From: Polytrichum commune
Lineage: Eukaryota > Streptophyta > Polytrichopsida > Polytrichales > Polytrichaceae
Length of the DNA: 64,000 nucleotides
Assembly: GCA_950295325.1 (NCBI GenBank)
Contig: OX485806.1
Location: forward strand, 40,674,001 to 40,738,000
Direction: 5' to 3'
The notes under the pieces were generated by a model. That model was not told where the DNA came from. It ran no database searches and saw nothing but the letters and a program-made list of their open reading frames with translations. Shown here in pieces: positions 14,341-64,000 of the stretch; within the stretch, counting starts at the first letter, position 1; each line of letters opens with the position of its first letter. A program made the position numbers and the translations under genes.

Positions 14341-14484
14341 ATTTTACGGACGTGCGTCCGTAAAATGCACACTGGGTTAGGTTTGATAACTTTACGGCCG
14401 CGCGGCCGTAAATATGCACTGCAGCGCGGCCGCAAAGTTGAAATGAACTAGGTGGTTACACTTTATGGTCGCGCGGCCGTAAAG
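14341..14484. repeat. Three type 1-like palindromes in intron 2 of gene A
   Basis: Intron 2 (14239-14525) contains dyads at 14341-14366 (centre TG), 14391-14412 (perfect, arm TTTACGGCCG) and 14461-14484 (imperfect). A half copy lies near 14420. Gene B has palindromes of its own type in the matching intron. Confidence 0.9.
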
Positions 14485-15908
14485 TTGCATAAGGTGGAGG
14501 CATGAAAGTTTTTTTAAGTACTTACCAATGCCGCATAAACAAATTTGGTCCCCCCGAAGACGTTGTACACTGTCTCACTCATCACAGTCACAGCCTTCAA
14601 TACTCCTATGTAAAAGTCCATTCGGAGCTCGGTTGCCGGGCAGATTGCGAACATCGCCTCGTCCATTAGCTCCTTGGGGTGTGGAGGCGGCAACTGGTAA
14701 ATTTTCTTGAACACGCTCTTCGCCTTTACAGGCAAACGCCCACTTGGCGAAGACTTCCGTGTCAAGAAATAGAGACATATAGCGCCCACCTGCTTTACCC
14801 CCCTTGCTTCTTCAATGACGGCGATGCCTTCCGTCTTCACGGGGACGTATGTGCTGTGGAAGATATTGTATTCGAGATCCATCGTCGAGTTGTATAGGTC
14901 GACGACTGCTGCGGATCTCTCTTGGTCCACAATCCACAGCTACACGTTTGGCTCCAGAAGTGCAGGGGACCGAAAGCTCTTGAAAGCTTTCAGGAAGCTG
15001 TCGTAGAAAGGGGTCCCCGGAGGAGATTGTTTCCAAGAATTTGGAAATGCACGGAAATCAAAGATAGCAAAAGGACAACCCCGGGGGTCATCTCTCACAG
15101 TGGCCCGCGAAGCATAGGTGTCCCACTTGCCGAACTTCAATTGTGATGTCACAGCGCAAAACCTCGCGACACCCTCGAATTTGGCATTCTTTTTTCTATC
15201 GAGGAAGTGTTTATACAAAGTTGTCTCCCTTTCGTCGATAGAACCTTTCTTCTCGTTCTTCCTTGAGCGCTGGGCCAAGAACGGAGATGCTGCTCTTATC
15301 AATGCCTTCATTGAGACGCCATTGATGTGGTATGCTATTTTCAATCCCCTCCAGTTGTCCCACACAATGTCACCATCTGCATCTGTAAGGTTGTAGGCGG
15401 GTACCAATTTGCCTATCTCCCTCATAGCCAATGTCTTCTTCTTCCTGTATTCGCACCATTCCTTAATATGGTACGTTGAAGGCTTCATAAACCTTGGTCG
15501 TTTGAGGAAGATTTTTGGATACGGCGCTGTCCTTCTCGGAGTCTCCTTAAGAAGGTGTTCTGCCGCCTTGTAAAGCTCGGCATCGAGCAACCCTTGGAGG
15601 GGACGGAAGAACTCTCTGAGGATTGGAGGCACCTTAATCTTCAGGTCCTCTTTGTACTTCTTCTCCGTCTCAAGGTTGATGAGTTCTCCGTTGTTGTGTG
15701 CATGGAAGACGCGCATCCAGATAGCCCAGATCCTATCCAACGAAGTGATGAGCTTCAGCTCGCCCTTCAGATCTTGCACTGTCTTCATGCCGCTTTGCTT
15801 CATGTCAATGCTTGAGAACTTCGTCACAATCGCACTGCTGAATGCCTGCAAGTAGAGAAACAAATGAGTTGTTGAAATGAGATCAAAAAATGAAATGAGA
15901 ATAGTCTA

Positions 15909-15983
15909 GTTTACGGACGCGCGTCCGTAAACTTGGAGCACAGAAAGAGTGACGGAGAATTTACGGACGCGCGTCCGTAAATT
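15909..15983. repeat. Two perfect type 1 palindromes in intron 1 of gene A
   Basis: The dyads at 15909-15932 (24 nt) and 15958-15983 (26 nt) are perfect, with arm TTTACGGACG and centre CG. They fill most of the 154-bp intron 15846-15999. The matching introns of gene B (49292-49506) and gene C (63815-63930) also hold palindromes, but with different arms. Confidence 0.95.
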
Positions 15984-17031
15984 CATTTGGAAATATTACC
16001 TGCCATTTGGGATTCTTGACGACTGCGTTGTCCCTTTCTTTTGGTGGACAGCCGTGCTCCTCCCACAAGGTCCTACCAGCCACGATGTTGGCTGCCCATG
16101 ACGCCTCAAACGCTTTGATTTTGTTTGTCTGGTTGAGGAAGGCAGATATGGCGATGAGCTGATTGGAGTCCTCTGAATGCACGAGAAGTGCCTTCCAATA
16201 TCGGATTGTGGGTTTCAGAGGGCTCTTCCAATTATCGTCTGCAAGGAGAGCTTTTGCCGCTTCCACGCTATGCTGGCCGTCCACGATGTAGAATTCCCTT
16301 TGCTTAATAATTGGCCAATGTTCTGCTGTGACCTCCACGATTGGATCCTTTGGGGTCACACATATGGTCTGCCGGTCAGCTTTCGGGTTGTTCATGATGT
16401 TGTTCATCTGCCACCAGACCCCGCTCTCTTCTTGCACCCGAGTATTCATACTCTCGGTGCCCTGGTGGCATTTATAAACATCCACGTCAAATGTGAAATA
16501 CCTGCCCATTGGCTAGCAGGCTTTCGTTTTTTCGTCGAACTCTTGTTGAATTTTTGTTGATAGATCAGAGTTCGGGCGTTCTCCTTTCTTCAGAAGTGGT
16601 GCGACAGTAAGGGTGGAGCTGACATCTGGACCTTCGGTAAGTCCAGATGACTTCATTTGTGAATGGGAGCGTTTACAGGATGGTCTGCTCCCTCTCGATG
16701 CTCCACTTTGAGACGGTCTTGATCATTCCGGGACTGTCTGTGGAACACGCGGTTGTCGTTTAGAAACGACTTTCTTCTTCCCTTTTCCCTTTCTGGACTC
16801 CAGGACTGCCCCATTTACTCTCGTGACATTGTTGAGGAGTCTTCCAAGCCGCTTACCCGTCCAAGGTGCATTGCATGCATAGTCTTGGAATTCAATTACC
16901 AGATTGAAGCAACCCGCATCCGGGCTGCCATTTTCGCATTCAGCCTTGTGGAATGGATGTCTGTGCTCATGAAGAAGAATTGTGACTCTGTCATCTTGTT
17001 TTTCAAGATCTATGACGACATAGTCACCTTG

Positions 17032-18008
17032 TGTCGCGCACCTCTCCATGAGGAGTGCCCGAAACACCATGGGCACAAGGGGGACCCCGGAGTGACACCC
17101 GGGACTTGTGGCGCCATTGGTGAGAGGGCCCAAGTGATCCTAGGGTGGGTGAGGGCCCCGGGCGTTGGGAACGCCTCCCACCCACGGAGACTAGGAGGCA
17201 CAAGGGTAAGGCCATGAGCTATGCGTAGCTCATGGCGTGGTGATTCTAGAATGCTCAAGAACACCTCAATCGGAGGTGTGAGCTAGGAGTTATGGCCATT
17301 TGAGTGGGGTGCTGTCCCGGGACAGCGCCCTGGTACAGCAGTGCCTGGGAGTGATTCCCGGGACTGCCAAGGTTCAAACAGGCATAACTTCCTCAACACT
17401 TGCCCGAATGGGGCAAGTGAGGAGTCCATCGGCATCTACGTGAAGCGTAGATGAGGATGGAGGGGTTGGTTGTTATGATCAGACATCATACAAGGAAGTT
17501 ATGATGGTCTGAAGCTGCTGGGCGGGTTCTAGGCCCAGCAGCTAAGGGAAAATGTCCACTTGGCCCCAACTCTTGGTAGAGAGACAAGAGGTTGGTTGGC
17601 GGTGGGATAGGGGCTCCGTGTAGAGTCCTAGAGGCTTATATGGGTGAGGTGGTGTGGCCTCACCCACCCGAGGCCGAACGGCAAGGCCTCCATGGGCATT
17701 GGCCCATTGTGAGGCCATAGTTGCCTAGTATGGTTCGGGTTGTTGTAGTGTTGCTCCGGCAACGCGATGATCAACATAAGATTGGACTTCCATGGATGGA
17801 AGTCAACATCTAAGGAGTGGTTACCGATTAAAGGGGTGAGTCCCGAAATCAAAGTAGGAGGGTTGGTTCCCCTCCTATGAACTAATGGTCCGGGGTTAGA
17901 GGAGCTAACCATTAGCATGGCGGTATGCGAAGGGTTAGCGACTCGTAACCTTTGCTAGAATTGAAAATTGGCAAGATGGTCAAGGGGGGGCTAGCAAGGG
18001 TTGCGACA
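17032..18008 (+). mobile_element. Solo LTR (977 bp) with TSD CCTTG inside exon 1 of gene A
   Basis: It begins TGTCGCGCACC and ends GGTTGCGACA. The 5-bp repeat CCTTG flanks it at 17027-17031 and 18009-18013. It lies in the sense opposite to gene A. Joining the gene across the duplication restores the frame, and the junction region aligns with gene B (V-x-G-D-Y-x-x-x-x-L-E near 50560). It is a clean example of retroelement insertion into a transposon gene. Confidence 0.95.
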
Positions 18009-18315
18009 CCTTGGGCCACTGCACACTCTACTGACCAATTTTTAACTCTAACCCATTTATCTACATCTATATCTTTCGTCTTCATTTGATACCCAAATCT
18101 AAGTACGAATGTGTCATTCTCAAGTTTCTCTACGTAAACTGTCCAGTTGTCTACTGTGTCTTCGACTGGCTTGTAGTGATCATTGTGGCTTATATCTTTG
18201 ATGGCGGGTGGAAGTGGAGGCGGAAGAAACTCAAATGCCTGGTTAATTGCAGGTCTTTTTGTAGATGCCATCTGCAAATGCAAAAACAATGCTTAGCATC
18301 ATGATCAATGTCAAG

Positions 18316-18842
18316 TTTACGGACGCGCGTCCGTAAATTTTCCACAGGTTGTTTTGAATTATAGTGTCAGAATGAACTATCCGAAAAGATTTTGCATATG
18401 TCAATACGAAATTTCACATGTAGTTTACGGACGCGCGTCTGTAAACTATCAACGGGTAGTTGGGGATGAGAATCTCAACTATGAACAAAGATAAGATTTA
18501 ATAAGAAAGTTCTAGTTTACGAACGCACGTCCGTAAACTAGTAGTTGGGTTTACGGGGTTAGCACTAATTTACGGACGTGCGTCCGGAAACTAGGAATGG
18601 GGTTTACTCGGATGTCACTAGTTTACGGATGCGCGTCCGTAAACTAGGAGTGGGGTTTACTTGGATGTCACTAGTTTACGGACGCGCGTCCGTAAACTAG
18701 GAAAATATACTGTCCATTAGTAATAATATTGTTTTAAAAATATATCCAGAACTTACGGACGCGCATCCGTAAGTTTTGGATATATGTTGCATGCTTCACC
18801 CACCTGGTGCGTTAAAGTTTACGGACGCGCGTCCGTAAACTT
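18316..18842. repeat. Array of eight type 1 palindromes in the 5' leader intron of gene A
   Basis: Dyads with arm TTTACGGACG or one-base variants lie at 18316-18337, 18421-18448, 18513-18540, 18566-18593, 18618-18647, 18671-18700, 18751-18774 and 18815-18842. The copy at 18671-18700 is a perfect 30-nt palindrome. Spacing is irregular (about 50-110 bp) and the intervening DNA differs. They lie just upstream of the acceptor that precedes the gene A start codon, so they are probably in a 5' untranslated intron. Confidence 0.95.
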
Positions 18843-27700: not shown

Positions 27701-28017
27701 TTTGTTTTTAGGAAAGAGTTGGCGGCTAGTATCCTATGCTGAAGAAAGGATCCAAGGGAAGATGACGAGTACTTAAGGGAAATCCCCCCACCAAGGGACT
27801 CTTTTTGCATCTCATATGTGGGTTGCGCTCTTGAGACCCTTGTAGTGTGGTGGATACTTGTTTCGCGCAGGTATAGATCCTATTGCAATGAACCTATTAT
27901 ACCCTAAACCCATATTCGATTTGCACTATCTGGATCTCTGAATGCGATGGATTCTATTTCTGACAGGTATTGTTCACGCTGCAAGGGTCCTATTATGACG
28001 CCGCAAATTACGGAACT

Positions 28018-28687
28018 TTACGGATGCGCGTCCGTAAACATTACATCTCTTGACTTATTTGCTTATTGAATATCTCATATCTTATTGAATCTCTCAGTGG
28101 CTCGTTGCATCATTGAGTATCTCAATCTATTTTCATTGGCTCATTGAGCATTTACAAGTAGGTTTACGGACGCGCGTCCGTAAACATGCATCCTTTTGGT
28201 GTCACATGGTGGTATGTCATCTACAATGTGGGCTGTGAATTATTATCTGTTTTGATAGTATGCATATTTGTTCTGATGAATATTTACGGACGCGCGTCCG
28301 TAAATCTTGAACCTTTTGCATCTGTTCTAGTAATGAGGTAAAGGTAGGTTTACGGACGCACGTCCGTAAACATACAAACCTCTTGCATCTGTTTAGTAAT
28401 GAGGTAAAGGTATGTTTACGGACGCGCGTCCGTAAACAGACAAACCGTTGGTACACATTCAAATACATTACTGGTAAGGCCAAGAGGTAAAATTTAGTGT
28501 AAATGTAAATGGGGCTGGGACTTCTTGGTTCCTTGCAACCCTATTTGTTTTGGACACAATTGTCATTTGACATAGGGATGTTTACGGACGGGCGTCCGTA
28601 AACATACATTGTCTAATTTGCCAAGACGTTTGCGCCTAACCCTGACATCTCTTATCAGATAATGATTTGCGGACAGGCGTCCGTAAA
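28018..28687. repeat. Array of seven type 1 palindromes upstream of the DUF7869-like gene
   Basis: Dyads with arm TTTACGGACG lie at 28018-28039, 28162-28185, 28282-28305, 28348-28371, 28414-28437, 28580-28603 and 28664-28687 (imperfect). Centres include CG, CA and GG. The units at 28318-28450 are a tandem duplication of about 66 bp (ATGAGGTAAAGGTA plus palindrome). The array ends about 50 bp before an acceptor (CTCTTGTAG) and start codon, so it probably lies in a 5' leader intron, as in gene A. Confidence 0.95.
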
Positions 28688-28740
28688 CATACACTGCTTA
28701 TATTTTATCTCATTCTTCATTTGGCTCTCTTGTAGTGGCC

Positions 28741-31700
28741 ATGGATTCCGACGTCGGTGATAGTGCGTCCGATTTCTCCTCGGAACTGTCAAGCTATGCT
28801 AGCGAATTTGAAGATGTCGTGGAACAGGAAGCTACAAATGGTGTGGCCGATGCAGATGATGAAATCATACCACCATGTGAGGGTTATTCGCGGGAGCAGT
28901 GGGTTGATCTTGATGTTGTACTACTCAATGCATGTGCCGTTCCCGTGGCCAACGGTGTTTGTAGGAACTCGAATCCAACGGATTGTATTGATGCAAAACC
29001 CCTCGGGGAGGACGATGTTGGGGTGTGCATATTGAACTCCTTACTTCCATCGGAAGTGCCTCCTGGTTGGAGGTTCTCTCTCCGTCGATGGCCTTTGCGA
29101 AGTGTTCATCACGATGGTGTGAGCTTGTGGGATCAATCCCGCCGATTTGAGCAACTGCAACAGTCTTTGTTCGCCACAATGCGTCCCAGACAAGGTCGTC
29201 GTAAATATGATTCCGTTCGTGTGCCTCGTGAACCCACGCAGCGTCGTCGAGATCATACATTGGGAGACACATCTATTAGGTCCGTAGCCACAAAGGATTG
29301 TTATGCGAAGAAGTGCTGCCAACTATTTCCCCGTGACAAAATCAAATCTTTGAGGCAAGAGATGTGGCTTGCCGACTTTCGTATGCGGTCTGCCAAGAAA
29401 CTTGAAGTACATCGCAACATGCACTTGGATGCCGGAGGTTGTAAGGTTGTGACCTTGGAAAATATAGAAGTTTGTTGCCGGGCATGGTACATTATTCATG
29501 CCGTTTCAAAGGCAGATTTTTATAGGTTCCGGAACTACTCGCTGCAAGGAAGGCGTTCTCGGTTCCATGGCAACTCAGGTACAAAGAAGCCCAGGGAGGC
29601 AACACTCCAAGCGGCTGCAACTCTGTCAACCATCATTATGCCATTAGCGGATGCGATGCCACACAAGACACGCACTTTGCCGTCGGGGGAAAAGGTTGTT
29701 CAGATGGTTTTACCCACAGGGACAAAATGGAAGAACATACTCGTGGATGTTAATGAAGTTGGTGAAAATGTTGGATGTGGGCCGATTTCGTTGTCAAAAT
29801 TGAATGTCATCAAGAATCAACAGTTCGCTGAATACATTACGAAGAGACCCGGGGATAAGTTTGCTACGTGTTCTACTTGTGAAAAATATAAAGGCCTTCG
29901 AGACGCACATCCAATAGGGACCAAGTCGCACACCAGACATCAACAGAAATACATTGAGCATGTCAACAACCAGGAGGCACACCGTCAATACTACTACAAG
30001 AATCGCGCCTTATCGATAATGAGGCCGAACGAGGTGTTGACAATCATTCATGACAAAATGGACCATGCGAAGACCGCTTGCCCTTGTTATGCGCGGAAAA
30101 TAAAGGCCACAGATGGATATTTCAAGCTACCAATATATGTCACAGGTTCGTTGGTTTTCATTTTTTTGGCGTGCCCACATATTCATTTTTAAGAGTTACG
30201 GATGCGCATCCGTAACTCGTCTGTGCATGGTTGTTCCTTACTTGCGGCAATATCATATTTCCTTCATATATATGATATTGGAATGTACTTCTCATTTGTA
30301 TGTCTTAATTCAGGTATAATTGCACATGGCCATGTGGACGTCAAGTATGCACATTATGGCTTGGATTTCTATCTAGGCGATGCCAATCATACCGTAGGGT
30401 CTTTTGCAAAACTTCTACGAGATCTTGAGAGTCCGCCAACATCATCCTCGCGTGCTTTTTTTGTTGGATGTGGAACAACTCCGATTTATGAGGTTGTGCT
30501 AGAGGGGAAGGAAGTTTGTCTATCTTCATTTCAAGAACCGCCTGAACAACCCGTTCTTGCTAAACCTTTGCCTCGAACTCTACACGTGCAACTTGACAAT
30601 TGTGCCAAAGATAACAAATGTCGATACGTGTTTTGTTTCTGGTCATTGCTGGTAGCCAAGGGCATTTTCAAAGAAGTGTTTGTGTCTTTTTTGATGGTTG
30701 GCCACACGCACGATGACATCGACGCTTCATTTGGACGTTGGAGTATGAAGTTGCACGAGGAGGATTTTCCGACAATTCCTCTTCTCATGAAATCATATAT
30801 GGATTTGGACAATGTGCCAGTCATTCCACATTTGATTGAAGAAGTGCCCGATTTCAAACGGTTTATAAAACCATTTATTCTTAAGGGGTCTGACCGACTA
30901 GTGGGCCACACCAAGGCTCAACAATTCCGATTTTATATGCGTGACGATGGTCTACCCGCCATGCAATTCAAAGTTTTGTGCACTTCCCCGAATTGGGGTC
31001 CGGAGGAAGGGATACTCATTTGGCGCAAAAACGAAGATGGCAAATGTGTGCTACCTGATGGTCAGCCAAAGCCTTGCACACCCAACCCCATGAGGAATGG
31101 GCCAGAAATCATCAAAGGTATATCCGGATTCATTGAATATTGGAAAGAATTGTGCGAGGAAGACATCACAAGACGTGTTAGGGATACCCACGAGCCATTG
31201 ATTACGTATTGGGATCGTATTCGCACGGCATTGATAGCACCCGATGTTGATACACATTCATGTTTGACACAAGGGTTTTGGCCACAAAGTCGAGTGACAG
31301 TCGTGGAATCTGAGGCCATGTTGTTCAACAATGGGGACGTTCGTGAAGAGTTCGCTGCGGACGATCATTATGTTGGCCCTGCTCGCAATCGACCGGAGCC
31401 GTCGTTTCGTGTTGGGGTTGATTGCCACGAAGGTTATTTGCTGCTCGTACGTGCTGGGGATGAGAAGCATCCCAAGCCAATTTGGTTGGTGAAAGCATTG
31501 TCATCACCAAACTTTGTTCCAACTAGTCCAAATTTTCGCCAAATTGAGGTGGAATATTGCCGTCCAAGCACCAAAGATCAAAATGTGCTCCGGACATATT
31601 TAGGGTGGGACACCAAAAAAGGTTTCAAATGGACAATGGACTCATCATACGAACCGGTTTGGATAAACACAGATACCATACTTTGTGCTTGGAAACCACA

Positions 31701-31833
31701 CAAAGGTTCGAAATCAGAGACAATGACCATCCCGCAAAAACATATAGATTTTGCCAAAGACAACTTGGCACGTATCGCAGCTGCGGAAAACGATCTTGAA
31801 AATGGAAATGAAGTTGAAGATGAAGATGAATAG
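28741..31833 (+). CDS. DUF7869-like protein, candidate RNase H-fold transposase (type 1 element), two exons
   Basis: Exon 1 runs 28741-30145 and exon 2 30314-31833, giving 974 codons with no stops. ATG 28741 follows an acceptor at 28730-28735. Landmarks in order: an N-terminal region shared with the other copies (W-V-D-L-D-V-V-L-L-N), C-x-x-C in C-S-T-C-E-K-Y, H-D-K-M-D-H-A-K near the exon end, L-D-N-C-A-K-D-N-K in exon 2, and V-G-H-T-H-D-D-I-D-A-S-F-G-R-W. The last two match the DUF7869 family pattern. The spaced Asp residues would fit a DDE-type catalytic core, but that is inference. The C-terminus is acidic. The gene points away from gene A, and both share type 1 palindromes. It is the only fully open member of its family here. 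Confidence 0.85.
30193..30218. repeat. Perfect 26-nt palindrome in the intron of the 28.7-kb gene
   Basis: The dyad has arm GAGTTACGGATG and lies in the 168-bp intron 30146-30313. It is a variant of the type 1 arm. The paralogous intron at 35815-35953 lacks a palindrome. Confidence 0.95.
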
Positions 31834-41045: not shown

Positions 41046-41153
41046 AAACATACAAATTATGGCATGTAAAATGCATAGCATGCTAACACCACACATCCAT
41101 TGGATAGTGCGACCCAAAATGATGTTGCCTATGCCCCCAAAACCCTACGCCTA

Positions 41154-44760: not shown

Positions 44761-46271
44761 CCGAAGGGCTTGTGTGATACTTTTAGGCTCCCTCGAAAGG
44801 GGGTGGCCCAAAAGTACCACACGCGACATCGTAGACAGTCTCGTAGAAGAAGCTCCCCAAGTTTGATTCGCTGACGATCTCAATCGAGGGCTCCAAACGC
44901 CGATGGCAAAATTAAAACAAACAAAACCCAAGGAGAGGGGGGGAGGGGGGAGCATGTGAAAATCGATATACAATTGAGGCATAATATATCACACACAATG
45001 GCACACCATGTAGTATCTCAAATGAGTTTATTATATTTCGCGTGAGCGTACAACTCTCTATACATATAGTCCTTCGGATCCATGTATCTTTCGCCTATTG
45101 GATTACAACTAAGGAACCGGGGCACGGGTAGTCCGCTCCCCACGAGCGTTTGAATGTACTTAAGTAGGTCTAACAAAAAGCGATCTCGGACCTTCTCGAC
45201 CGTCCACGTGGGACAAACTATGAAGTTGGAGGTCGGGTTCAAAATGTTTTTGGAAGCGCTGTTGTCCACCATCAACGTGTTGTCACGGGTGGGGCGAACG
45301 TCGTAGGGATAGCCGACCATGTTGGGACGCTGGTCCCATACGACTGGCTTCAAGACCTTAAGAAATTGGTTTACGGCGGGGTTGTTGGGCTTCTTCACAA
45401 CCCTGCCCTCGGGGGTGTATAATGTTTTACAAGAATCCTGTCCTAAGACCAAGCACGGGGGTTGGAGTCCTTTGAAGATGAACTCCACGACCGCCTGGGT
45501 GTTCTCGGACTTCATGGAGCTCCACACGATCACCCACCATTTGGATAGGGCGATCTGTAGGAAGCGCCGAAGCCACGGGCGGAGGTACACTAGCTTGCTT
45601 TTGATGTACGCGGGGGGACCATCGTAGTTGGCGTCCTCGGGCTTGCAGAAAGGCACCGTGGGGACCCTCGGACAATGCACGCATTGGACAAGGACCCCGT
45701 TGAGGTCTAGCACCAGGAACCGGGTCTTGGGAGGCGAAGGTGGCGAGGGCAAAATTGGGGGGACCACCACGCTGTCCTCCACACTCCTCGGAGAGGACCG
45801 GTGGGGAGCCGCGACGCTATGCTCCGAACCCTGCGGCGACGAGCGAGAGAAGGCGGCGAGGACTATGTTATGCTATGTCCATCTCAAGCATAACGGAAAT
45901 TTTGTGCAAACACAAGAAGAATTAGACCATTGGTGGCAACAAAAACATACAACGGGAACAACATACATTGGGGCACGGATGCAAACATATGGGCGCCAAA
46001 AATAATAACTTTATTTTTACAAATCTCTATGTACAATTTGATGGGGGGGGGGGACCGCGGTGAACGAGGGCATTCACACTATCCTAATTCTACATCTACA
46101 AAATTGGTTGCGCGCCGCCAAGGTCGAGCGTAGTCGAGTGCAGGTGAAACGAAGGGGATCGCGGGGGGCACGTTGGGGGAGGGGGAGCAAGTGTAGAGCA
46201 TGGGGGGCAGGGGTGTGCATTTCCTCCTAGCAATGGGGACACGACCACGCCAACAAGACAGTGACCCAGGA

Positions 46272-46295
46272 AGTTTGGGTCGGTCGACCCAAACT
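46272..46295. repeat. Type 3 palindrome in inferred intron 3 of gene B
   Basis: The dyad has arm AGTTTGGGTCG, centre GT, and lies within the inferred intron 45831-46315. Its presence fits the rule that the internal introns of this gene family carry palindromes. Confidence 0.9.
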
Positions 46296-46594
46296 GGGAG
46301 GGCTCAGTGTATTACCTCGCCCTGGTCATGTCTCGACGATGTGGAAGCCTCCACCGTCCCCGCTGCCCCACCTCTCTCGCCACCGCCTTCTCCGACGACG
46401 TTAGGAACCTTCTCCTGCAAACAATCGGCATCAGGCCCTTGTCCTAAACCAATCTCCGCATGTGCATCATGCATGGGTTCATCAATTTGGTTAGGAGTAG
46501 AGGTATCACCAGGCCCTTGCAGGCCTTCAACATCTAGCATGGCCGTGCCTAGTTGACATTCATGTTGGTCAAGGGAGGACTGCACTGCAATGGG

Positions 46595-46685
46595 GTTTGG
46601 GTCGCCCGACCCAAACTGTCCTGCATCTGGAGAGGGCCCTTCGGACACTACAGTGGATGGTGGGTTTGGGTCGGTTGACCCAAAC
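46595..46685. repeat. Two type 3 palindromes inside exon 3 of gene B, in frame
   Basis: Dyads at 46595-46616 (centre CC) and 46664-46685 (centre GT, one mismatch) lie within the open exon. On the coding strand they encode F-G-S-G-D-P-N and F-G-S-T-D-P-N without disturbing the frame. They sit in the disordered Pro-rich region. Confidence 0.95.
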
Positions 46686-47873
46686 ATCCTGGGGTCGTCC
46701 GATTGGTGAGGGGGCGCCATGACTATGGGGGGCCGAAGTGGTGGAGGGCCCAAAGGGGAGGAGGCTCCAGAGACGCGCCAGATGTTGGGGTCATCCACTT
46801 GCTGGACCGGCGCGTACGGAACTTGGTGGGGCCGCATCAAGTGCTGGAAGCTGAAAGACGATTGCGGCAAAGGCTGCTGAGGGATGCTCTGCGCAGGGAA
46901 GCCGGGGGGCAAGTGCGGGAAGGCGCTGGAGGGAGCCACCACCAAACCTTGCGCCCACATTCTTTGTATCACTTGTGATATCAAGTCGGCGTGGGACGGA
47001 GGTTGGGCCATCGCCCTCTGACGCTCCTGCTCCAACAGGAGAGCCCTCAGCTCTGCTACCTTGTTCCGCACCGAGGGCTCTTCCGCGGCAGCCTTCTGCA
47101 GACGGACGCATTGCTCCTCGTCCCTCCGCATCTTCTCGTTTGCCTCATCCACCATGAGGACTTCGGGTTTCACCCTAACCATGCTAGCGAACGCTGTCGG
47201 GGAAGGGGGATCCGATCTGAGCCGTTTGGCGAGCTCAATGTCATCGTCGTCCTCGCTGCTTATGGCAATGGTCTCCTCCACGGAGTAGTCGCCATACAGC
47301 TTCTTCCCCTTTAACTTCCTCCTCTCCCTGAACGTGGCGGTCACGTCCCTGGAGTACATGTCCCGTGCATCGGCCACCGTGAGGACGGGCACGAGCTTAC
47401 TCTGCGGGGTTGCCGCCCGCATCGCCTTCTTCCATTGAGGGGCTTTGGATTCTTGCGTGAAGCCCGTTGCCCCTTCCTCGACGTCGCCTTCCTTCTCCGC
47501 CTCCTCGTGTTCCTCTTTTTCCTCCTCCTCGTCGACCTAGCCACCTTCTGTGCGGGACGGATTGCCCGGATGCAACCTGACCAGAGGTTCGGGTACTTGG
47601 GTTGTGGCCCTCATGGCCATTTCTTCCGGGTTGATCCGCCTTGCCCTATCAAGAGGGTTTTCGCCCCCCTGAACAACCTCGTCGACGTAGCTACCCGGGA
47701 TCCAATCGAGGATGTCCATCTTCTTCGCCAGCGATTTCTGCGCCCTGTAAAATGGCAGATCGCCATCCTCTATGTAGGAGTAGATATTCAACCCCGACAT
47801 CTACACAATCCAAGTTATAGGGAATTAGAATTTGTCGAGGCAGTCACATAAACAAGACTAAGGACAATGTGTA

Positions 47874-47930
47874 GTTTGGGCCGGTCGACCCAAACCAAAA
47901 AATAGCCCACTTTGGGTCGATCGACCCAAA
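47874..47930. repeat. Two type 3 palindromes in intron 2 of gene B
   Basis: Dyads lie at 47874-47895 (one mismatch) and 47911-47930 (perfect, centre AT) within the 159-bp intron 47801-47959. This intron matches gene A intron 2 in position. Confidence 0.95.
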
Positions 47931-49380
47931 CTGCTTACGAGCTATAGAAAGTCACTTACCATGGCAGCATAGATAGGTTTCGAGCCTCCGCAGACGTTGA
48001 AGATGCAGTCCCCTCTCCTCGTCAGCGTCCTCATCATTCTCATGTAAAATTCCATCCGCAGCTCATCTGCAGGATAGTTTGCGTATTTAGCCTCGTCGTA
48101 GAGGCACTTGTTGGCACCCAACCCTTCTAGAACTTGGAAGAGTTTGTCCATCCGGGATATAGGGTGGTTCGGCACCTTCAGCAACTCCGCTTTGTACACG
48201 AAGTACAAACACAAGACGTTGACGAACTTGGTCTTTTTGTCCCTCAACGTCGTGTAAGCCCCCTCCGCCGGTGCGGCGATGTAGTGAGACTTGGAGACTG
48301 CATACTCCGGCTGCAGTTTCCGGACAAGCTCGTACACCTGCTCCGCTCTCCTATCCTCGACTATCCAAAGCCAGATATCTACCTCCCTGAACTTAGGGCT
48401 TGCATAATCGACGAACTTAGATAGGAAGGGGTCGTAGAAGAGGGTGCTCATCGTGCTCTCAAATGAGCTTCCAGGAATATTCCTAAAATCAATCATCCCA
48501 AAAAGAAAGCGGTCCCTTGCTTTCGTCCTTATCGCCATTCTGGCGTCTTGACCTGGCCAGCCCTGAATTTTCAAATTGTCAAAGGTGACAAGGTTGAAGT
48601 AAGCGTCCCCTTCAAACTGGACAATCTTCTTCTCCTTGATAAAGTTCGAGAACGCACGCGCTGTGTGATCCGGAAGCGCCCGGTTTTTCCCACCCTTCAC
48701 CATCTTGGCCCGCAAGAAGTCGTCCCCCGCTTCCCTTATTAGAGCCGCCATGGAGGCACTGGTGAACTTATATTTAGCTTTGAATGCTCTCCAATTAGCC
48801 TCATGGACCTCACCGTCCACGACAATATTCCTCTCTGGCACTAATTTATGCAGCTCCTGCACGATAATCGCCTTCTTTTTCATGTTCTCCGTCCATTCCT
48901 TCATGGTGTAGCATGAAGGAACAAAGGATTTGGGCTTTTGGAAGACAATCTTCGGGTGCACCCAGCACCACTTCGCCGTGAGTGCCACATGCAGGATGTG
49001 AGATGCCGCCTTCTCCATCTCCGTCTCTGACAGCCCTTGAAGAGTTCTAAAGAACTCTCTCACGAGAGGCTTCATCTGCTTGAAGCGCGAGGTTTGGCTG
49101 AAGAAAATGCCAGTGTCGGGGTCGATCAAATCCCCCGTCTCGTGCTTTTCAAACACGGTTTTCCACTTCCTCCAAACTGAGTCCGATGCTGTAATCAAGT
49201 AAATCTCCCCCCTGAGGTCGTTGTATTTCTTTTGCTTGTGGCTCGAATTATCAATGGAGGAGAATTTGTTGATCATTTGGTATTTGAAATCCTGCACGTC
49301 CACAAAATAGAACATTTGAATGCGTGTTAGATATGTACATGTGATTTCCAACCCATATCATGACCAACATCTGCAACAAC

Positions 49381-49497
49381 AGTTTGGGTCAATCGACCCA
49401 AACTAAAAAAACACAAGACTGCAACAATTGTTTGGGTCGATCGACCCAAACTAAATAAACAAGGCTGCACCAGGAGTTTGGGTCGGTCGACCCAAAC
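49381..49497. repeat. Three type 3 palindromes in intron 1 of gene B
   Basis: Dyads at 49381-49404, 49430-49451 and 49476-49497, spaced about 46-49 bp, have centres AT, AT and GT (the first with one arm mismatch). They lie in intron 49292-49506, equivalent to intron 1 of genes A and C. Confidence 0.95.
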
Positions 49498-50857
49498 AAT
49501 ACTCACCTCCCATTTGGGATTCTTGTCCTTCGCATTCTCCCTCTCCTTGGGAGGCCTACCATAGAACTCCCACACCTCCCGCGAGGCCATGATATTCCTT
49601 ATCCAGGAAGTTTGGTAGGCCCTCTTCTTATTTCCCATATTGAAGAACCGGGAGATGTCGCTGAGCTTGGTCTCGTTGTCAGACCACACCACCGGTGCCT
49701 TCCAAACCTTCAGCTTTTCCTTCTGATTGTTGGGATCATCCCACTCATTCATGAGTTGGATTTTCTTGGATGCCTCCACGCTGTGTTGGCTGTCTATCAG
49801 CCAAAAATCGCCCTTCTGAATTGTTGGCCACATTTCAGGTGTAGGCATTTTCTTGAGACCCTGTGGCATCACTACAATCGTTTGCCTGTCGTCTTTAAAC
49901 TGCTCGCAAACGATCTGCGCGATTATCCAGTCAACGTAGGCGTCTTCCTTTGCCCGGACATACTTCTCTGGTGGCGCTAGATGGCACTGGCTGATGTTCA
50001 CGTCGAACTTGAAATCCCTTCCCATGAAAAAATAGTGGGAGCATTTTGTCGTGAAATTGTTCACGATTTTCTGCAGCTCCCCTGCATACACCTCTTCGCC
50101 GGGCTTCGGCATACGCAACTCCGGTGAGACTGGCTCGTCAGTCATCACAGATGACTCTCTCGCCCTCTTGGATGGAGTTGTTTGACGGCTCCTAGAAGGT
50201 GTAGGCGTCTCGCTATCCGTAGGTGTTTGGGAGGGAGTGGTCCTTCACGAGTCAGCCGGTACTGGTCCCGGCTTCCTCACCGATTGAGGTCTTGACGACC
50301 CTGCTCCTTCCTCTGTGGTAGCTTTCCGCCTCACAGGTTGCTGTGATTTGGTTTTGCTTTGCAGGTCCTTGTTCAGCACGGTTATTGCATGTTTTAGTTT
50401 TGTGAACCGGCTTGAGACCTTGGTATTCGATGTACTCCCATCGATAAATATTGTCTCTGGCTTGATAACTTCCGGTTCGACACAGGACTCTATTGCATAG
50501 AGTGCGTCGAAAGGCTCGGAGAACTAGTGCATGAACATATGCGCGTTCTGCACAACCGAGTTCTCGAGGATGACATCGGTATAGTCTCCAAGAGACTGTA
50601 CCGATGCGACCTCCCATCCCGTAAGAGTCGCCCAGGTGTGTTTCTCCACGGTTCCCACCTTGACAACAAAAATCATTTTGTATATTGAGGCTTTGACTAC
50701 TTGAATAGACCAAGCCAGGACAAGCCCGTCCTTAGGGGAATAGGAGTCATCTTGCGGGGTTTCATGCTCCTGCCACAACATGTCCGGCACAGGCATGAAC
50801 CACCTTTCGCCAGGTCTTTTCTTTGGAGCCATCTGTAAGAAAATAATGTGCAATGTT

Positions 50858-51410
50858 AGTTTCGGTCGTTCGACCCAAACATCTACGACATGAATGATTT
50901 AGGTGGATTGTGTATTTACATATTTTAGCATCATTTGTATTGATAATAAGAATGTTGTGATTATTGGGTGGATTTGCATTTTATATTTTTTGTGACATGC
51001 AGGATTCCTTGATATTTTTCCTTGATACATTCCTTGATTATTATTTTTGGGTGGACGTGAATTTTATATTGATGCAAAAACCATGGATTTCTTTATGAGT
51101 TTATAATTACAAGACTTTGTTTGGGTCGTTCGACCCAAACATGATGCTTTGTGATGTATTTGGGTCGTTCGGCCCAAACATGATGCTTTGTGATGTGTTT
51201 GGGTCGGTCGACCCAAACAAGGGGCTGTGTTTGGGTCGGTCGACCCAAACAAGGGGCTGTGTTTGGGTTGAGCGACCCAAACAAGGGGCTGTGTTTGGGT
51301 CGGTCGACCCAAACAAGATGCTGTGTTTGGGTCGAGCGACCCAAACAAGGGGCTGTGTTTGGGTCGAGCGACCCAAACAAGGGGTTGTGTTTGGGTCACT
51401 CGACCCAAAC
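50858..51410. repeat. Array of ten type 3 palindromes in the 5' leader of gene B
   Basis: One imperfect dyad lies at 50858-50880. Nine more follow between 51119 and 51410, with spacing falling to about 31-33 bp and spacer text such as AAGGGGCTGT repeated. Centres include TT, GT and AG. A decayed copy is at about 51421. They lie upstream of the acceptor (TTTCTTACAG) that precedes the gene B start codon, so probably in a leader intron. Confidence 0.95.
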
Positions 51411-52345: not shown

Positions 52346-52391
<46 letters not shown>

Positions 52392-55728: not shown

Positions 55729-56124
55729 GTTTGGGTCGGTCGACCCAAACCCCTCCACTACTGTTTAGGATTTTTGTCTGACCCTGATGAGGTTTGGGTC
55801 GACCGACCCAAACATGTCCACTACTGTTTAGTGTGACTGTACGACCCTTATGAGGTTTGGGTCGGTCGACCCAAACCCCTACCCCAGTGTGTTAGGGTGC
55901 CTGTACGACCCTTATCAGGTTTGGGTCGACCGACCCAAACCCCTACCCCAATGTGTTAGGGTGCATGTACGACCCTTATCAGGTTTGGGTCGACCGACCC
56001 AAACCCCTACCCCAATGTGTTAGGGTGCCTCTCTGACCCTTAAGGGGTTTGGGTCGACCGACCCAAACCCCTACCTGGTGGGGGTATATTTACCCTGTGA
56101 AGGTTTGGGTCGGTCGACCCAAAC
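55729..56124. repeat. Array of seven type 3 palindromes with a 63-bp period
   Basis: Dyads with arm GTTTGGGTCG start at 55729, 55792, 55855, 55919, 55983, 56047 and 56103. Centres are GT or AC, which are the same sequence read on opposite strands. The spacers share GACCCTTATCAGG and CCCTACCCCA. A decayed copy is at about 56178. The array lies between gene B and the DUF7869-like fragment at 59.8 kb, and uses the arm of gene B. Confidence 0.95.
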
Positions 56125-59479: not shown

Positions 59480-59839
59480 GATTTTAATCCTCTCTATATT
59501 ATGCCGCACGTCGTTTTTAAAATGCACTAAGTGATCTACCCGTGGAGTCGGTCGACCGAATCCCGACCCCATCCCATGGGCAAGCTGTGGATGACCCTCA
59601 ATCCATGGTGGCACAGGATTTAGGTCGGTCGATCCAAACCCCCTACTAAAATATTTTGTGGAACTATTTTTGGTCTTGCGCACAATATTGGGAGTTCACA
59701 TTTTAGTTGTGTTGCAAATGTTTTTATACTCGGTGTCCCTATTGATCATGATGTCTTGCATTTAGCGATATTTGATTATTTTGGACCCTTGCATTGTGTC
59801 CATGTGTGTTGAGGTTTCATGTGCATGTGTGTAGGCGCA
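59480..59839. repeat. Decayed type 3 palindromes in the leader of the 59.8-kb fragment
   Basis: Two degenerate dyads, GAGTCGGTCGACCGAATCC near 59547 and TTAGGTCGGTCGATCCAAAC near 59620, lie upstream of the acceptor (GTGTGTAG) that precedes ATG 59840. They link this gene copy to the type 3 element. Confidence 0.6.
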
Positions 59840-61320
59840 ATGGAGGGAGTTGATGGAAGAGGGGATTCCTTCTCTGAAGACATGGGCAACACCCAATCTT
59901 CGTCTGGGGATGAGCTAGACATTGTCGGGGAGGATAGTTTTGATGACAGTGCAGATGAAGGTCATTTGGGGAGTCCTTCGCCATCTGCCCCTTCTTGCCC
60001 CATTGTGGAATGTGCAGGGCTTTCACGAGCTTCATGGGTGAATTTGGATGTGGTACTTGTTAATGACAATGGAGTTGCTGTGGCGGAGGGTATTTGTCGT
60101 AACACACATCCACAAGATTGCATTGATGAAAACCCCCTTGGCACCGAGGACGTTGGAGTTGTTATATTGGAATCACTCGTACATTCCGAAGTGAATCCAA
60201 CTCATAGGTTGTCGCAACCCTTGCTAGCTCAATTAGCAATCTTGCGAATTTTCCTTTCTAGCAAAGGTTACGAGCGCTAACCCTTCGCATTCCGCCATGC
60301 TAATGGTTAGCTCCTCCTACCCCGGACCATATAGTTCATAGAAGGGGAACCAACCCTCCTACTTTGCTTTTGGGACTCACCCCTTAATCGGTAACCCATT
60401 TCTTGGATGTGGACTTCCATCCATGGGAAGTCCAATCCTATGTTGATCATCGCATTGCCGGAGCAACACTACAACAACCCGAAGCATACTAGGCAACTAT
60501 GGCCTCACAATGGGCCAATGCCCATGGAGGCCGTGCCGTTCGGCCTCGGGTGGGTGAGGCCACACCACCTCACCCATATAAGCCTCTAGGACTTCACGCG
60601 GGGCCCCTACCCCACCGTCAACCAACCTCTTGTCTCTCTACCAAGAGTTGGGGCCAAGTGGACATTTTCCTTTAGCTGCTGGGCCTAGAACCCCCCAGCA
60701 GCTTCAGACCATCATAACTTCCTTGTATGATGTCTGATCATAACAACCAACCACTCCATCTTCATCTACGCTTCACTTAGATGCCGATGGACTAATCACT
60801 TGCCCCATTCGGGCAAGTATTGAGGAAGTTATGCCTGTTTGAACCTTGGCAGTCCCGGGAATCACTCCCAGGCACTGCTGTACCAGGGCGCTGTCCCGGG
60901 ACAGCGCCCCACTCAAATGGCCATAACTCCTAGCTCACACCTCCGATTGAGGTGTTCTTGAGCTTTCTAGAATCACCACGCCATGAGCTACGCATAACTC
61001 ATGGCCTTACCCTTGTGCCTCCTAGTCTTCGTGGGTGGGAGGCGTTCCCAACGCCCGGGGCCCTCACCCACACTAGGATCACTTGGGCCCTCTCACCAAC
61101 GGCGCCACAAGTCCCGGGTGTCACTCCGGGGTCCCCCTTGTGCCCATGGTGTTTCGGGCACTCCTCATGGACAGGTGCGCGACATAGGTTCTCGTTGCGA
61201 AGGTGGCCGTTGAGGAATGTGACAATTGAGGGGGTTAGCTTGCATGACCATGAGCGACGACACATCCAAATCCAACAGGAGCTCCAACCAAACATTCGGC
61301 CACGCAAAGGCCTACTGTGA
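59840..61320 (+). pseudogene. Truncated DUF7869-like gene fragment (type 3 element), split by a solo LTR
   Basis: ATG 59840 opens the same N-terminal region as the other two copies (W-V-N-L-D-V-V-L-V-N, then C-I-D-E-N-P-L-G). The frame stops at the solo LTR 60210-61184 and resumes after one copy of the TAGGT duplication with F-S-L-R-R-W-P-L-R. It ends in a stop at 61318-61320, where similarity to the paralogues (R-P-R-K-G-L) also ends. Only about 165 of nearly 1000 residues remain. The body of the gene is missing, replaced by LTR-like DNA. Confidence 0.9.
60210..61184 (-). mobile_element. Solo LTR (975 bp) with TSD TAGGT inside the DUF7869-like fragment
   Basis: It is the reverse complement of the 17032-18008 family: it starts TGTCGCAACC and ends GGTGCGCGACA. 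The duplication TAGGT lies at 60205-60209 and 61185-61189. Confidence 0.95.
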
Positions 61321-63040
61321 GCCCAACATGGTGCCCACATGTGGTGATTAACTCTTTGAAACCAATTTTAATTTGACTTTGATGTGTTATGATTATTCAC
61401 AAAACATAAAAAGAGTGAAGTGTGGTTTGGATTTAAGTTTAGGCTTTAGAATGTGTTGGGTGGTTATTTCAAGGGTTAAGTTCAATAGGATAATGCCTTG
61501 ATTATGTGAGTAGGGGGTAAGGTGAGGCAAGGTGAGCTCCACGGGTTAAATGCCCACTTTTGGATCCACCTTGGTAGTTTAGGAAGAAGGAAGTTTGGTG
61601 GAAGGGGATTAGTCCCTACTTTGAAGGTGAAGGTTAAGGGATTGTGATTGGAGGTGCTAATCCTCTCACCCTATCCTCACCTCTCTCTCCCTTTCTCCCT
61701 CTCTCCCTCTTTGCTACTTAAGGTGTTTTCTCTCTCATTTTCCTCTCTCTCCCTCAAGCGCTCTCAAGGGAGCAAGTCCTTAATAGCTTGAGTCACGTGT
61801 GTAGGATATTAGTTTTAGTGGAGTTCATTAGTTAAGCTCTCTCTCTCATTGTCTCTAAAGGGGGTGAGTTCTTAGAACTTGATACAAGGGTGTGAAAGAA
61901 GTAGCTCTTAGAGTAGTTGTGTGTTAGATTAGTTTAGTTCATTAGCGGGTAAGTTAGCTCACTTATCCCAAAGTACAAGGGAGAAGGAATTAGGAGATGT
62001 GTGGATTAGTACTTAAGGTTGTACGATTCAACGGGGGTGGCTACCTTACTCGCTACCAGCTGCACTCTGCTGTCCGAGGCCTAACTGGGCAGTTGCATTC
62101 TGATGGCCGAAGCCCAACGGTGGTGGCTACCTTATTCGCTACCAGCTGCACTCTGCTGCCGAGGCCTAACTGGGCAGTTGCATTCTGATGGCCAAAGCCC
62201 AACGGTGGTGGCTACCTTACTCGCTACCAGCTGCACTCTGCTGCCGAGGCCTAACTGGGCAGTTGCATTCTGATGGCCGAAGCCCAACGGTGGTGGCTAC
62301 CTTACTCGCTACCAGCTGCACTCTGCTGCCGAGGCCTAACTGGGCAGTTGCATTCTGATGGCCGAAGCCCAACGGGGGTGGCTACCTGACTCGCTATCAA
62401 CTACAACTCTACTGGTCTAATGCCAACGGGGCAGCTGCAAGTAACTTTAATGGACCAAGGCAAATCTTGGAGTAAGCCCGGGCTAGCCTTGTTAGGCCTT
62501 AACTTAACGAATCAAGATATAGTAACCTTAGTGCTTCACCACAATTTAACCTTGTACCACAATAGAATATTTTAGAATATTTTAGACCTTAGGTAAGTAT
62601 GGGATTCATTAGGCTAGGTATGGCATGTGTGATTTTCGGTTGTATTGGTGCTTGAACCATTAAGAAAAGTGTTTTTCAACACTCGAACCCAGTGGTCAAA
62701 ACAAATCACTTGGATTACTAATGGAGAAGGTGGAGGACATCCGCGGTGGCGAAACAAAGGAGGTTAGGCCGATGGAGAAAGTGGGCGACTCTAGTAATGG
62801 AAGAAGGAAGAAGAGGATAATCAAAGGCCAAAGGGGAATATCTTTGAGAGCTTGTGTTGCCAAGGCCGCCGGTTGGACCCTTGAGAAAGCCAATTCGGCT
62901 ATGGGTCAAGAGGCTACCATTAATAAACGAAGTGATTCAAAATGACATGAATGCCTTGGGATGTTAAGGGAGCATTTTCAATACACAAACAATACATGTG
63001 ATTCTCAAAACCATCACCCGGACTAGGACGCTTAAGGGGG
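61321..63040 (+). mobile_element. Retroelement-like insertion with an 88-bp tandem repeat
   Basis: The DNA is non-coding with CT-rich runs (61680-61760). From about 62034 to 62395 a unit of about 86-88 bp (GCTACCTTACTCGCTACCAG, then GGGCAGTTGCATTCTGATGG) is repeated four times. A short plus-strand frame at 62721-62945 shows no recognised family. The segment interrupts both the DUF7869-like fragment (left) and the 5' part of gene C (right), so it probably replaced DNA there. Borders are approximate. Confidence 0.4.
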
Positions 63041-64000
63041 GTGGGTTTGGCCTCACAAGGAGGTTCTAGAAGTGCGCCGCGGCCAGTGCCTTCAGCTAGC
63101 AGATTGTCAGAAGGGCCAAGCAGACACTCCACGCCATCTAAAAGAATTAGGGACGATATGGAGAAGTCTGGTATCACGGAGACAGCTGAGGTCAACTCGT
63201 CGCCTGTCATGCCGACTCCTTTGAAAAAGGGAGAAAACCCTGATGCGGCAAAGGCAACTCGTATCCTTCGCGACTTCAACAATTACTCGAAGGATTGCTG
63301 GCCCATGGAACGGCACTTCACCTTCAATGTGGACTGCTTCAAATGCGAGAAATCCCCCAACAAGTGGGTGGTGAGGTCACGTGAAAGCGGAGGTGTGAAG
63401 TGGCAAATCAACAACTTGATGAATAACGTGAATTGGGATAGGCAAACTGTGTGTGTTATGCCAAAGGGTTTCACTTCCCGTCCCACGGAAAAAGATTGGG
63501 CAAGAATCCAGAACGGGGAGTTTTGGATTATTGATGGACAGCACAGCTTGGAGGCATCGCAGATCATCTTCAAGGATGATAACTTCCAGCATGAGCTCAA
63601 GGGGGACCTGCGCTACTGGAAGGCGTTCCTAGTGTGGTCAGACGACTAGGACAAGCTCCGGAAAATTTCGACATTTTTGAATTCCGGGAATAAAATCAAG
63701 GCGTTTGAGGCATCATGGGCAGCAAACATAGTGGCTGCGAGAGACGTGTGGGTGGCACACGGGTGCCCACCAAAGGAGAGGGAGAATGCAAAAAACCAGT
63801 CTCCACAATGGAAGGTAAGTTTACGAACGATCGTTTGTAAACATCTGGTTCCTTTTCAACATTCTTGATCATTTTATTTACGAACGTGCGTTCGTATTTG
63901 GTAGCCCGCTGACATTGCTTTCTAATGCAGGCGTTTTGCGATGCGATGGTGGACAAATTCTCTTCCATCGACATGAAGTCCACTTCAACGAAGTCAGTGC
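63041..64000 (+). pseudogene. Gene C: partial ParB/DGQHR-like gene (type 2 palindromes), cut by the window edge
   Basis: The first exon is open from about 63041, with its 5' end missing, to donor 63815. Exon 2 starts at 63931 after TAATGCAG and runs off the window. The exon has I-I-D-G-Q-H-S-L-E-A-S (about 63529-63561) and D-C-W-P-M-E-R-H-F-T-F-N-V, aligning with genes A and B throughout. TAG at 63647-63649 interrupts the frame shortly after the DGQHS motif. The intron and its phase match intron 1 of genes A and B. It lacks the start codon and the first 200 or so codons. Confidence 0.85.
63819..63898. repeat. Two type 2 palindromes in intron 1 of gene C
   Basis: Dyads at 63819-63842 (arm GTTTACGAACG, centre AT, one mismatch) and 63877-63898 (centre TG) lie in the 116-bp intron 63815-63930. 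The arm is the one seen around the 34-kb DUF7869-like gene. Confidence 0.95.

Follow-up and report, generated by a model that had tools for sequence, protein, structure and literature searches.

A 64,000-nucleotide stretch of the Polytrichum commune genome (contig OX485806.1, positions 40,674,001 to 40,738,000; hereafter the window) carries many short palindromes beside the genes of DNA transposons. We find that these palindromes belong to a genome-wide, lineage-specific palindrome system of a transposon family that encodes a DUF7869 protein (gene A) and a second protein (gene B). Each site consists of two inverted 10-bp half-sites separated by 2 bp, and there are at least five specificities, in which types 1 and 2 and types 4 and 5 form pairs that differ at one half-site position. 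The hypothesis that the arms are recognised by a protein is well supported by this pattern, function being predicted. We consider it probable that the palindromes are 22-bp operators of a homodimeric protein encoded by the element itself, most likely the product of gene B, that serve self-specific control or anti-silencing.

A first-pass annotation of the window had described more than 40 palindromes of one layout, in which arms of three types end in CG around a freely varying dinucleotide (CG-NN-CG). The window was scanned for these three arm types, counting mismatches over the 20 arm positions, with the window read backwards as a control. It contains 28 exact palindromes (17 of type 3, 11 of type 1 and none of type 2), 49 when one mismatch is allowed (24 of type 3, 16 of type 1 and 9 of type 2) and 56 when two are allowed, while the backwards-read window gave zero sites up to four mismatches. 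For arms of at least 9 bp and a spacer of 2 bp, 41 dyads were observed, against a mean of 0.4 and a maximum of 2 in 20 dinucleotide shuffles. At spacer 1 there were none and at spacer 3 there were three, and the excess at spacers 0, 4, 6 and 8 largely reflects identical sites read with shorter or longer arms. The reported number of palindromes was thus borne out, and the same layout extends across the genome.

The genome (407.8 Mb in 64 contigs) holds 1147 exact sites of type 1, 2909 of type 2 and 9731 of type 3, the last counted with the 9-bp arm TTTGGGTCG, and backwards-pattern controls gave 0 in each case. All three reported arms are therefore real, including that of type 2, for which every site in the window has at least one mismatch. 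There are, however, at least five types genome-wide. A search for DUF7869 genes, in which 150 of 1491 candidates were scored, provided 11 gene A slices picked across frame-length classes with palindromes disregarded. Palindromes with a 2-bp spacer lie upstream of gene A in nine of these; the remaining two (L020 and L021) come from a DUF7869 class that is distant from the others. A type 4 arm is carried by three of the palindrome-bearing slices and by the separately fetched element E692, and a type 5 arm by one slice; exact sites of these two types number 644 and 177, respectively.

The site boundary was examined with the inner 7 bp of both arms as a seed and with flanks filtered for redundancy. 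For all five types the outermost half-site base holds 1.04-1.41 bits of information, and one base further out this falls to 0.16-0.57 bits. It can be seen that the half-sites of types 1 to 5, TTTACGGACG, TTTACGAACG, GTTTGGGTCG, CCCACGGGTG and CCCACGGGCG, share a 10+2+10 geometry and have G at positions 6 and 10; the type-3 half-site is accordingly 10 bp long and not as first described. Type 4 has TG..CA beside the central dinucleotide, so flanking CG is not universal and CG-NN-CG was rejected as the code. The claim of a free centre applies best to type 2, which is the most mixed, whereas the other types examined in fetched DNA are strongly biased: type 1 has 41 CG, 10 CA/TG and 1 CC/GG, and AA/TT occupies the centre in 63 of 70 type-4 and 49 of 54 type-5 sites.

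Spacing is also restricted, with type-3 arms found 9731 times at spacer 2 against 172 times over spacers 3-15. All 50 of the type-3 sites listed at spacers 3-15 represent one 29-bp repeat with a spacer of 11. This repeat, TTTGGGTCGAGCAAAATGCTCGACCCAAA (for example C1:1020528-1020556), is dispersed, mostly as single copies far apart among the matches listed; it may be unrelated or derived, and its sharing of the type-3 arm is unexplained. Sites that mix two arms are rare. In raw genome-wide counts there are 43 mixed sites of types 1/2 against 1147+2909 pure ones, and 32 of types 4/5 against 644+177. Three of the latter (C3:11261707, C4:34783927 and C6:43037821) adjoin type-5 DUF7869 matches at the position of the palindrome in the gene A intron of E692, and look like inherited intermediates. 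The palindromes are clustered: among the matches listed, 84 of 86 type-2 and 42 of 50 type-4 sites have a neighbour of the same type within 10 kb, the other 8 type-4 sites being solitary. Clustering of types 1 and 3 was judged by eye from the site lists.

Transposons, genes and arm types

Four complete elements, of 9.5-17.4 kb, define the transposon family. Two type-1 elements, E1 (C1:36951047-36968396) and E2 (C1:27947644-27964956), are 97.6% identical over about 17.35 kb with sharp ends. All four have terminal repeats AACACTATATTCG at both ends and are flanked by 4-bp target duplications (ATGG for E1, CACT for E2, ACCT for E5 and CATA for E3). Terminal inverted repeats together with a duplication of fixed length are features of cut-and-paste DNA transposons. 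Across the genome, the 28-bp terminal repeat occurs with at most two mismatches in 1096 and 1102 copies on the two strands. Among the matches listed, which are on C1, many form facing pairs with about 7.5-25 kb between them. This terminal repeat is common to types 1, 2 and probably 3, whose arms differ.

In E1, gene A lies on the minus strand as two open frames encoding DUF7869, with palindromes about 0.5-1.1 kb upstream, followed by a long spacer. Gene B, on the plus strand, also has palindromes upstream and comprises exon 1, which encodes a DGQHS motif, and exon 2, with palindromes after each exon; beyond it lie open reading frame (ORF) C and then ORF D. Element E5 was selected for a pair of terminal repeats and no listed type-1 site, and has 23 type-2 sites at corresponding places. 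In both E1 and E5 the arrays lie about 4 kb from the element ends and are not subterminal. E692 (C1:48451501-48478000), whose ends were not found, has the full layout with type-4 sites (5' of A, between the A frames, 5' of B, between the B, C and D frames and one inside frame C), although its A and B proteins are only 44.5% and 20.5% identical to those of E1. The 9.5-kb E3 (L015, C1:639041-648600) was not a blind pick, its type-2 sites having been listed already. It has the same terminal repeats, and contains a D fragment and no intact A or B apart from fragments, yet 33 type-2 dyads whose arms reach at least 8 bp remain in it. On C1, terminal inverted repeats at 31.47 and 50.55 Mb form pairs of almost the same length and suggest that E3-like non-autonomous elements are multicopy.

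Within the coding region, intron 1 of gene B has GT..AG ends at the same place in E1, E5 and E692, and in each of them a palindrome of the element's own lineage lies no more than about 50 bases from the 5' splice site. For L055 the GT end is seen, together with palindromes. A separate case is the type-5 sequence L035 (C1:33084501-33088050, 1822-3549), in which a single open frame spans the first two exons of B. Both intron and palindrome are absent from this place, apparently through intron loss.

We compared arm types in 48 sequences, 46 of which have sites, several being the two ends of one element. Setting aside 51 7-bp dyads of no type, 322 of 326 typed inner-arm dyads are of the main type of their sequence, so the reported agreement of arms within a unit is near-perfect. 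The four exceptions are all of type 2 and occur singly in the type-1 elements E1 (element position 10471), L046, L047 and L052, which gives one such site in four of seven type-1 sequences other than that of the window, and in the window the site at 18516 pairs a type-2 arm with a type-1 arm. The lone type-2 palindrome of type-1 elements, which E1 has close to where gene B starts, may be a relic or may serve a function of its own. In all 12 elements with both sides read, the A side has the arm type of the B side, the A side of C6_39.1 being represented by one site.

Maximum-likelihood trees were built from 25 A rows and from 25 of 27 B rows, L050 and the type-2 fragment of the window being too short. 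Arm type changes 4 times on the B tree and 5 times on the A tree, which includes a palindrome-free outgroup. These are the minimum possible numbers, and arm type in this sample therefore follows the phylogeny of both gene families. Shuffled labels required means of 15.5 (B) and 16.4 (A) changes, and none of 200 shuffles was as low as observed. On the B tree types 1, 2, 3 and 5 each form one group with starred support, and type 4 is not resolved (27% of bootstraps); on the A tree types 1-4 each form one group and type 5 does not (10% of bootstraps). Both trees are to be read with the caution that long branches meet and that near-copies cluster labels on their own.

The arms also persist where the surrounding DNA has diverged, each in its own type. 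Between E1 and the type-1 element of the window, identity falls from 90% in gene A to 56-86% per 150-bp block upstream; between E692 (type 4) and L023 (type 5) it falls from 87% to 37-75%. E692 and L032 show a mild drop, and between E5 and the type-2 element of the window only fragments can be aligned upstream of A. The rarity of mixed arms, the fixed spacing and the survival of the arms in poorly alignable flanks argue for recognition.

Candidate readers of the palindromes

Gene A has a sole match above the Pfam cut-off, to PF25273 (DUF7869), at 132.6 and 132.5 bits against a cut-off of 26; a sequence search of the PDB returned nothing (best E 0.45), and acidic motifs in A were noted by eye only. 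For gene B, the best sub-threshold Pfam match was to YEATS, a chromatin-reader domain, and came from a single protein of the nine searched (E 0.017; score 15.5 bits, cut-off 22). It covers residues 108-151 of exon 1 of E1 gene B (L001:8000-9421) and is not significant. The same holds for a match to the ParB-like phrog_1033 in one of nine proteins (E 0.025), and B has no Pfam or NCBIfam match to a ParB N-terminal domain. Matches of exon 1 to PDB profiles are chance-like (Cas1, E 0.13; an N-methyltransferase, E 0.76, at the GQH motif only), as are three other matches of exon 2 (E 0.04-0.34), and a match of exon 2 to a trimeric cytochrome c (E 3.3e-7) is a composite of three copies with individual E values of 2.6-3.2. 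Relatives of B were found neither in viral contigs (exons 1 and 2) nor in prokaryote contigs (exon 1), but the collections searched are viral and prokaryotic, so this absence says little. ORF D matches PF03031, a NIF/SCP-type phosphatase domain, in the window (E 9.6e-14) and in E692 (E 3.8e-11). Phosphatases of this type have a DxDx motif; at the expected position the domains at 45018-45872 and L018:5166-5987 have DLNG or DVNG, the window copy reading DLNGV.

B is in most comparisons the more divergent of the two proteins. A is 83% identical between E1 and E5, whereas B is 47% identical, and the ratio of B to A protein distance has a median of 2.6 over 15 same-arm pairs. The ratio is 4.1-4.4 between types 1 and 2 and 2.5-3.2 between types 4 and 5. 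Among seven type-4/5 elements (21 pairs, of which four are near-identical; C6_39.1, without a single exon-2 frame, was left out), all 17 divergent pairs, which are not independent of one another, have a lower synonymous divergence in A than in B exon 2, the value for A being about half. Either exchange of A between lineages or constraint on its silent sites would give this difference. Under either cause the arms 5' of A keep to the type of B, and this pattern of sequence divergence therefore tilts the choice of reader towards B, the products of A and of ORFs C and D being less likely candidates. Within types gene B is under purifying selection, its ratio of nonsynonymous to synonymous divergence (dN/dS) being 0.07-0.27 in 10 of 11 comparisons and saturated in one; synonymous divergence was saturated in three tests in all (that one, and one each for B and A between types), and the frames run from stop to stop and may include a little intron.

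We infer from these patterns that B would be the binder, that binding would be dimeric and that activation or anti-silencing would be the outcome. The two half-sites would form the operator for a homodimer of the transposon protein. With sites 5' of both genes and between coding exons, one protein could mark the non-coding DNA of its own lineage, and both genes might thereby be switched on or shielded from silencing. Lineages would not act on one another because each has its own arms and its own B, and non-autonomous derivatives that keep their arrays could be served in trans.

Several observations weigh against this interpretation. Apart from the composite artefact noted above, B has no significant match in Pfam, NCBIfam, PHROGs or PDB profiles, and AlphaFold models of its two exons (three window sequences each) are poor, with mean predicted local distance difference test scores (pLDDT) of 39.7 and 36.6. 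Co-segregation is partly expected without recognition in clonally inherited elements, tandem expansion and gene conversion might by themselves make the arrays of one lineage uniform, and arm type tracks gene A as well, which makes A a possible binder. The close pairs E692/L024 and E5/L025 show no upstream drop in identity and so provide no evidence of constraint. Finally, the B/A ratio for types 4/5 about equals the same-arm median. A burst of B change at the arm switch is thus not evident for these types, and acceleration of B at arm switches, with the ratio raised for types 1/2 only, was not kept. The earlier proposal of a recognition site co-evolving with its protein is partly supported, by the co-segregation of arms with both trees; that arm change drove protein change would be conjecture.

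If instead protein A, the presumed transposase, bound the sites for transposition or its regulation, the minimum number of arm changes on the A tree, the arrays upstream of A and their retention in non-autonomous E3 would all be accounted for. We regard this as unlikely: the arrays of E1 and E5 are not subterminal, arms differ among types that have one terminal repeat, A is the more conserved protein with the lower synonymous divergence, and the arms travel with the diverged non-coding and B part of the element. A subterminal transposase role was likewise set aside because the arrays lie kilobases from the ends. It is rather less to be expected that no protein reads the palindromes and that they are parasitic sequences, prone to form hairpins and multiplied within a lineage by slippage and gene conversion. 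Tandem arrays of short period do hold many of the sites, and each lineage is close to fixed for its arm variant, as under concerted evolution. Such spread, however, fits poorly with a single 10+2+10 geometry in five lineages with different arms, also at non-tandem intron positions, with the sharp 10-bp boundary among redundancy-filtered flanks, and with a centre that is free where the arms are not, at least in type 2; a non-symmetric repeat would spread equally well. RNA hairpins are less likely as the functional form, since sites also occur upstream of genes.

Reading by a host factor (a transcription factor, or chromatin or small-RNA machinery), from which lineages drift or escape, seems very doubtful. 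At least two CpG are present in four of the five arm types, and the non-coding regions of VANDAL transposons are targets of RNA-directed DNA methylation in Arabidopsis, according to the available part of PMC10398659. A single factor nonetheless fails to explain five exact arms each tied to its own B lineage, and the keeping of exact symmetric sites would be odd if they merely attracted silencing. We give least credence to gene B being a DNA methyltransferase-like enzyme with the palindromes as its methylation sites. The sites are palindromic and contain CpG, and a faint likeness to amino-methyltransferase motifs X/I and IV (ELRM-FY...N-CGG-K, D-R-IPG) was seen by eye. Yet B exon 2 has no match to a methyltransferase profile in Pfam, NCBIfam or the PDB profile search, the DPPY motif of such enzymes is absent and type 4 lacks CG beside the centre. 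Binding of the sites by a B homodimer is the reading that we consider most probable.

Feature map of the window

The window contains three elements, one each of types 1, 2 and 3 (Table 1). The type-3 element is probably nested inside the type-2 element and splits it; the gene B fragment at 63 kb and the A side at 33886-39231 are probably the two sides of one element. Exon 1 of the type-3 gene B is broken into three frames in the window and is open in L055; most of the type-3 gene A is absent from the window copy and present in L010 and L011.

Table 1. Elements, genes and palindromes in the window. Positions are those of the window; site lists give single palindromes.
Feature	Position	Strand	Details
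Type-1 element	~14.1-32.5 kb		With insertions
Type-1 palindromes TTTACGGACG-NN-CGTCCGTAAA, B side	14343..18839		14343, 15910, 15960, 18316, 18424, 18516 (mixed arms), 18569, 18622, 18675, 18818
Gene B, type-1 element	14487..18289	-	From tblastn with E1 proteins and ORFs
Gene B type 1, exon-1 pieces	18289-18011, 17064-15964	-	DGQHS motif; split by a repeat
Gene B type 1, exon-2 region	15851-14487	-	Frame shift at ~14939
Type-1 palindromes 5' of gene A	28017..28687		28017, 28163, 28283, 28349, 28415, 28581, 28666
Gene A, type-1 element	28735..31833	+	DUF7869 (PF25273, E 1.7e-38); frames 28735-30192, 30202-31833
Degenerate palindrome	30195		Separates the two gene A frames, type-1 element
A-side terminal inverted repeat, type-1 element	32440..32478	-	AACACTATATTCGTTATTTGGAGACTTT...
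Type-2 element	33.9-39.2 kb (A side); 63 kb (B fragment)
A-side terminal inverted repeat, type-2 element	33886..33923	+
Gene A, type-2 element	34295..37448	-	DUF7869 (E 1.8e-38); 37448-35946, 35812-34985, 34978-34295
Type-2 palindromes TTTACGAACG-NN-CGTTCGTAAA 5' of gene A	37952..39231		All with at least one mismatch; mostly a 160-bp tandem array
Type-3 element	from ~40.6 kb		Gene A broken at 60.2 kb
Probable B-side terminal inverted repeat, type-3 element	40622..40660	+	2 mismatches to the 28-mer; candidate end
ORF D, type-3 element	45018..45872	-	NIF/SCP-type phosphatase-like domain (PF03031)
Type-3 palindromes GTTTGGGTCG-NN-CGACCCAAAC	46273..51410		Between B, C and D open frames and 5' of B
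Type-3 palindromes between B/C/D frames	46273..49476		46273, 46595, 46664, 47874, 47910, 49382, 49430, 49476; the last three lie between the gene B exons
ORF C, type-3 element	46304..47536	-	No Pfam match; 29% identical to E1 ORF C
Gene B, type-3 element	47942..50898	-	Exon 1 50898-49504; exon 2 49357-47942
Type-3 palindromes 5' of B	50859, 51119-51410
Type-3 palindromes 5' of gene A	55729..56124		64-bp tandem array
Gene A 5' part and upstream, type-3 element	59619..61315	+	59619-60214, 61183-61315; interrupted by a ~970-bp repeat
Gene B fragment, type-2 element	63041..63898	+	DGQHS, 63041-63868; type-2 palindromes 63820, 63877

Other repeats share the window with these elements. A 170-bp tandem array at 4-2441 (14.3 copies) has, in 12 places, a perfect 16-bp palindrome, CTGTCGGATCCGACAG, with spacer 0. 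Another repeat, about 1 kb long, has copies at 11.6-14.0, 17.0-18.0 and 60.2-61.2 kb, inside the type-1 gene B and the type-3 gene A among other places, and some of these copies have GCTGTCCC..GGGACAGC dyads. There is also a short imperfect AAACCCT array at 23018, which we take to resemble the plant telomere repeat.

Comparison with known systems

The literature search found no paper naming DUF7869, and no such system was among the matches listed for transposon palindromes, Sola-type elements, anti-silencing and bryophytes. Of systems with partial likeness, REPs (repetitive extragenic palindromic sequences) are extragenic bacterial repeats with tyrosine transposases (RAYT). They share with the present sites the abundance and clustering of short palindromes tied to a transposase-type gene (PMC2817692, in the part available). 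The sites described here, in contrast, lie inside large eukaryotic elements, 5' of genes and in introns. ParB-parS also has palindromic sites, which are read by the ParB protein, and the [DN]GQH[ST] motif of B is merely reminiscent of ParB-like domains; the differences are that B has no significant ParB profile match, that the host is a eukaryotic transposon and that its 22-bp sites have a variable centre. TnpA of Spm/En is an element-encoded DNA-binding regulator that reads a repeated 12-bp motif, acts in transposition and can relieve silencing. Its sites are subterminal, whereas those studied here are internal, palindromic and lineage-specific.

The nearest known system appears to be VANDAL/VANC, and the palindrome system may work like it. 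According to the available parts of PMC5735166 and PMC10398659, both have arrays of motifs, in many cases tandem, within introns and 5' of genes that the element itself carries, one-base motif differences between subgroups, and a motif and an element-encoded protein that change together, with specificity among related lineages. In the present family, E1, E5 and E692 have repeated motifs in non-coding DNA, both between coding exons and 5' of the A and B genes, and arm type changes with the encoded protein in the minimum 4 steps on the B tree. The family is nevertheless not a VANDAL/VANC member, because neither a MULE-type (Mutator-like element) transposase nor a long target duplication was found when these defining features were tested. 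Gene A encodes DUF7869 and has no MULE-type transposase match, and the target duplication is 4 bp as against the long one, about 9-11 bp, typical of MULEs. The VANC21 motif is 9 bp long and arrayed in one orientation, and the word fragment 'palindrom' is absent from the available text of PMC5735166, while the sites here are 22-bp palindromes. B and VANC were compared by family matches only, and B has none of significance in Pfam or NCBIfam. Anti-silencing by VANC has been shown in Arabidopsis (PMC5735166 and PMC10398659, in the parts available), whereas for the present family we predict it by analogy.

By the same analogy, a tentative possibility is that the system represents VANC-like self-recognition and anti-silencing that evolved independently in another superfamily, in which an orphan dimer with a ParB-like GQH motif would spread from its sites and keep its own chromatin open. 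If B does read the palindromes, transposons would have solved the problem addressed by VANC a second time and with different parts, and sequence-specific self-recognition would be a recurrent transposon strategy and not a curiosity of one Arabidopsis family. The family offers a natural library: its sites run into the thousands, it has at least five specificities with sister types one base apart, and there are proteins to match. It also includes mixed-arm sites, which are rare and intermediate between types, and non-autonomous elements in which the sites alone are kept. With this library, the joint change in specificity of a DNA-binding protein and its many dispersed sites becomes directly testable.

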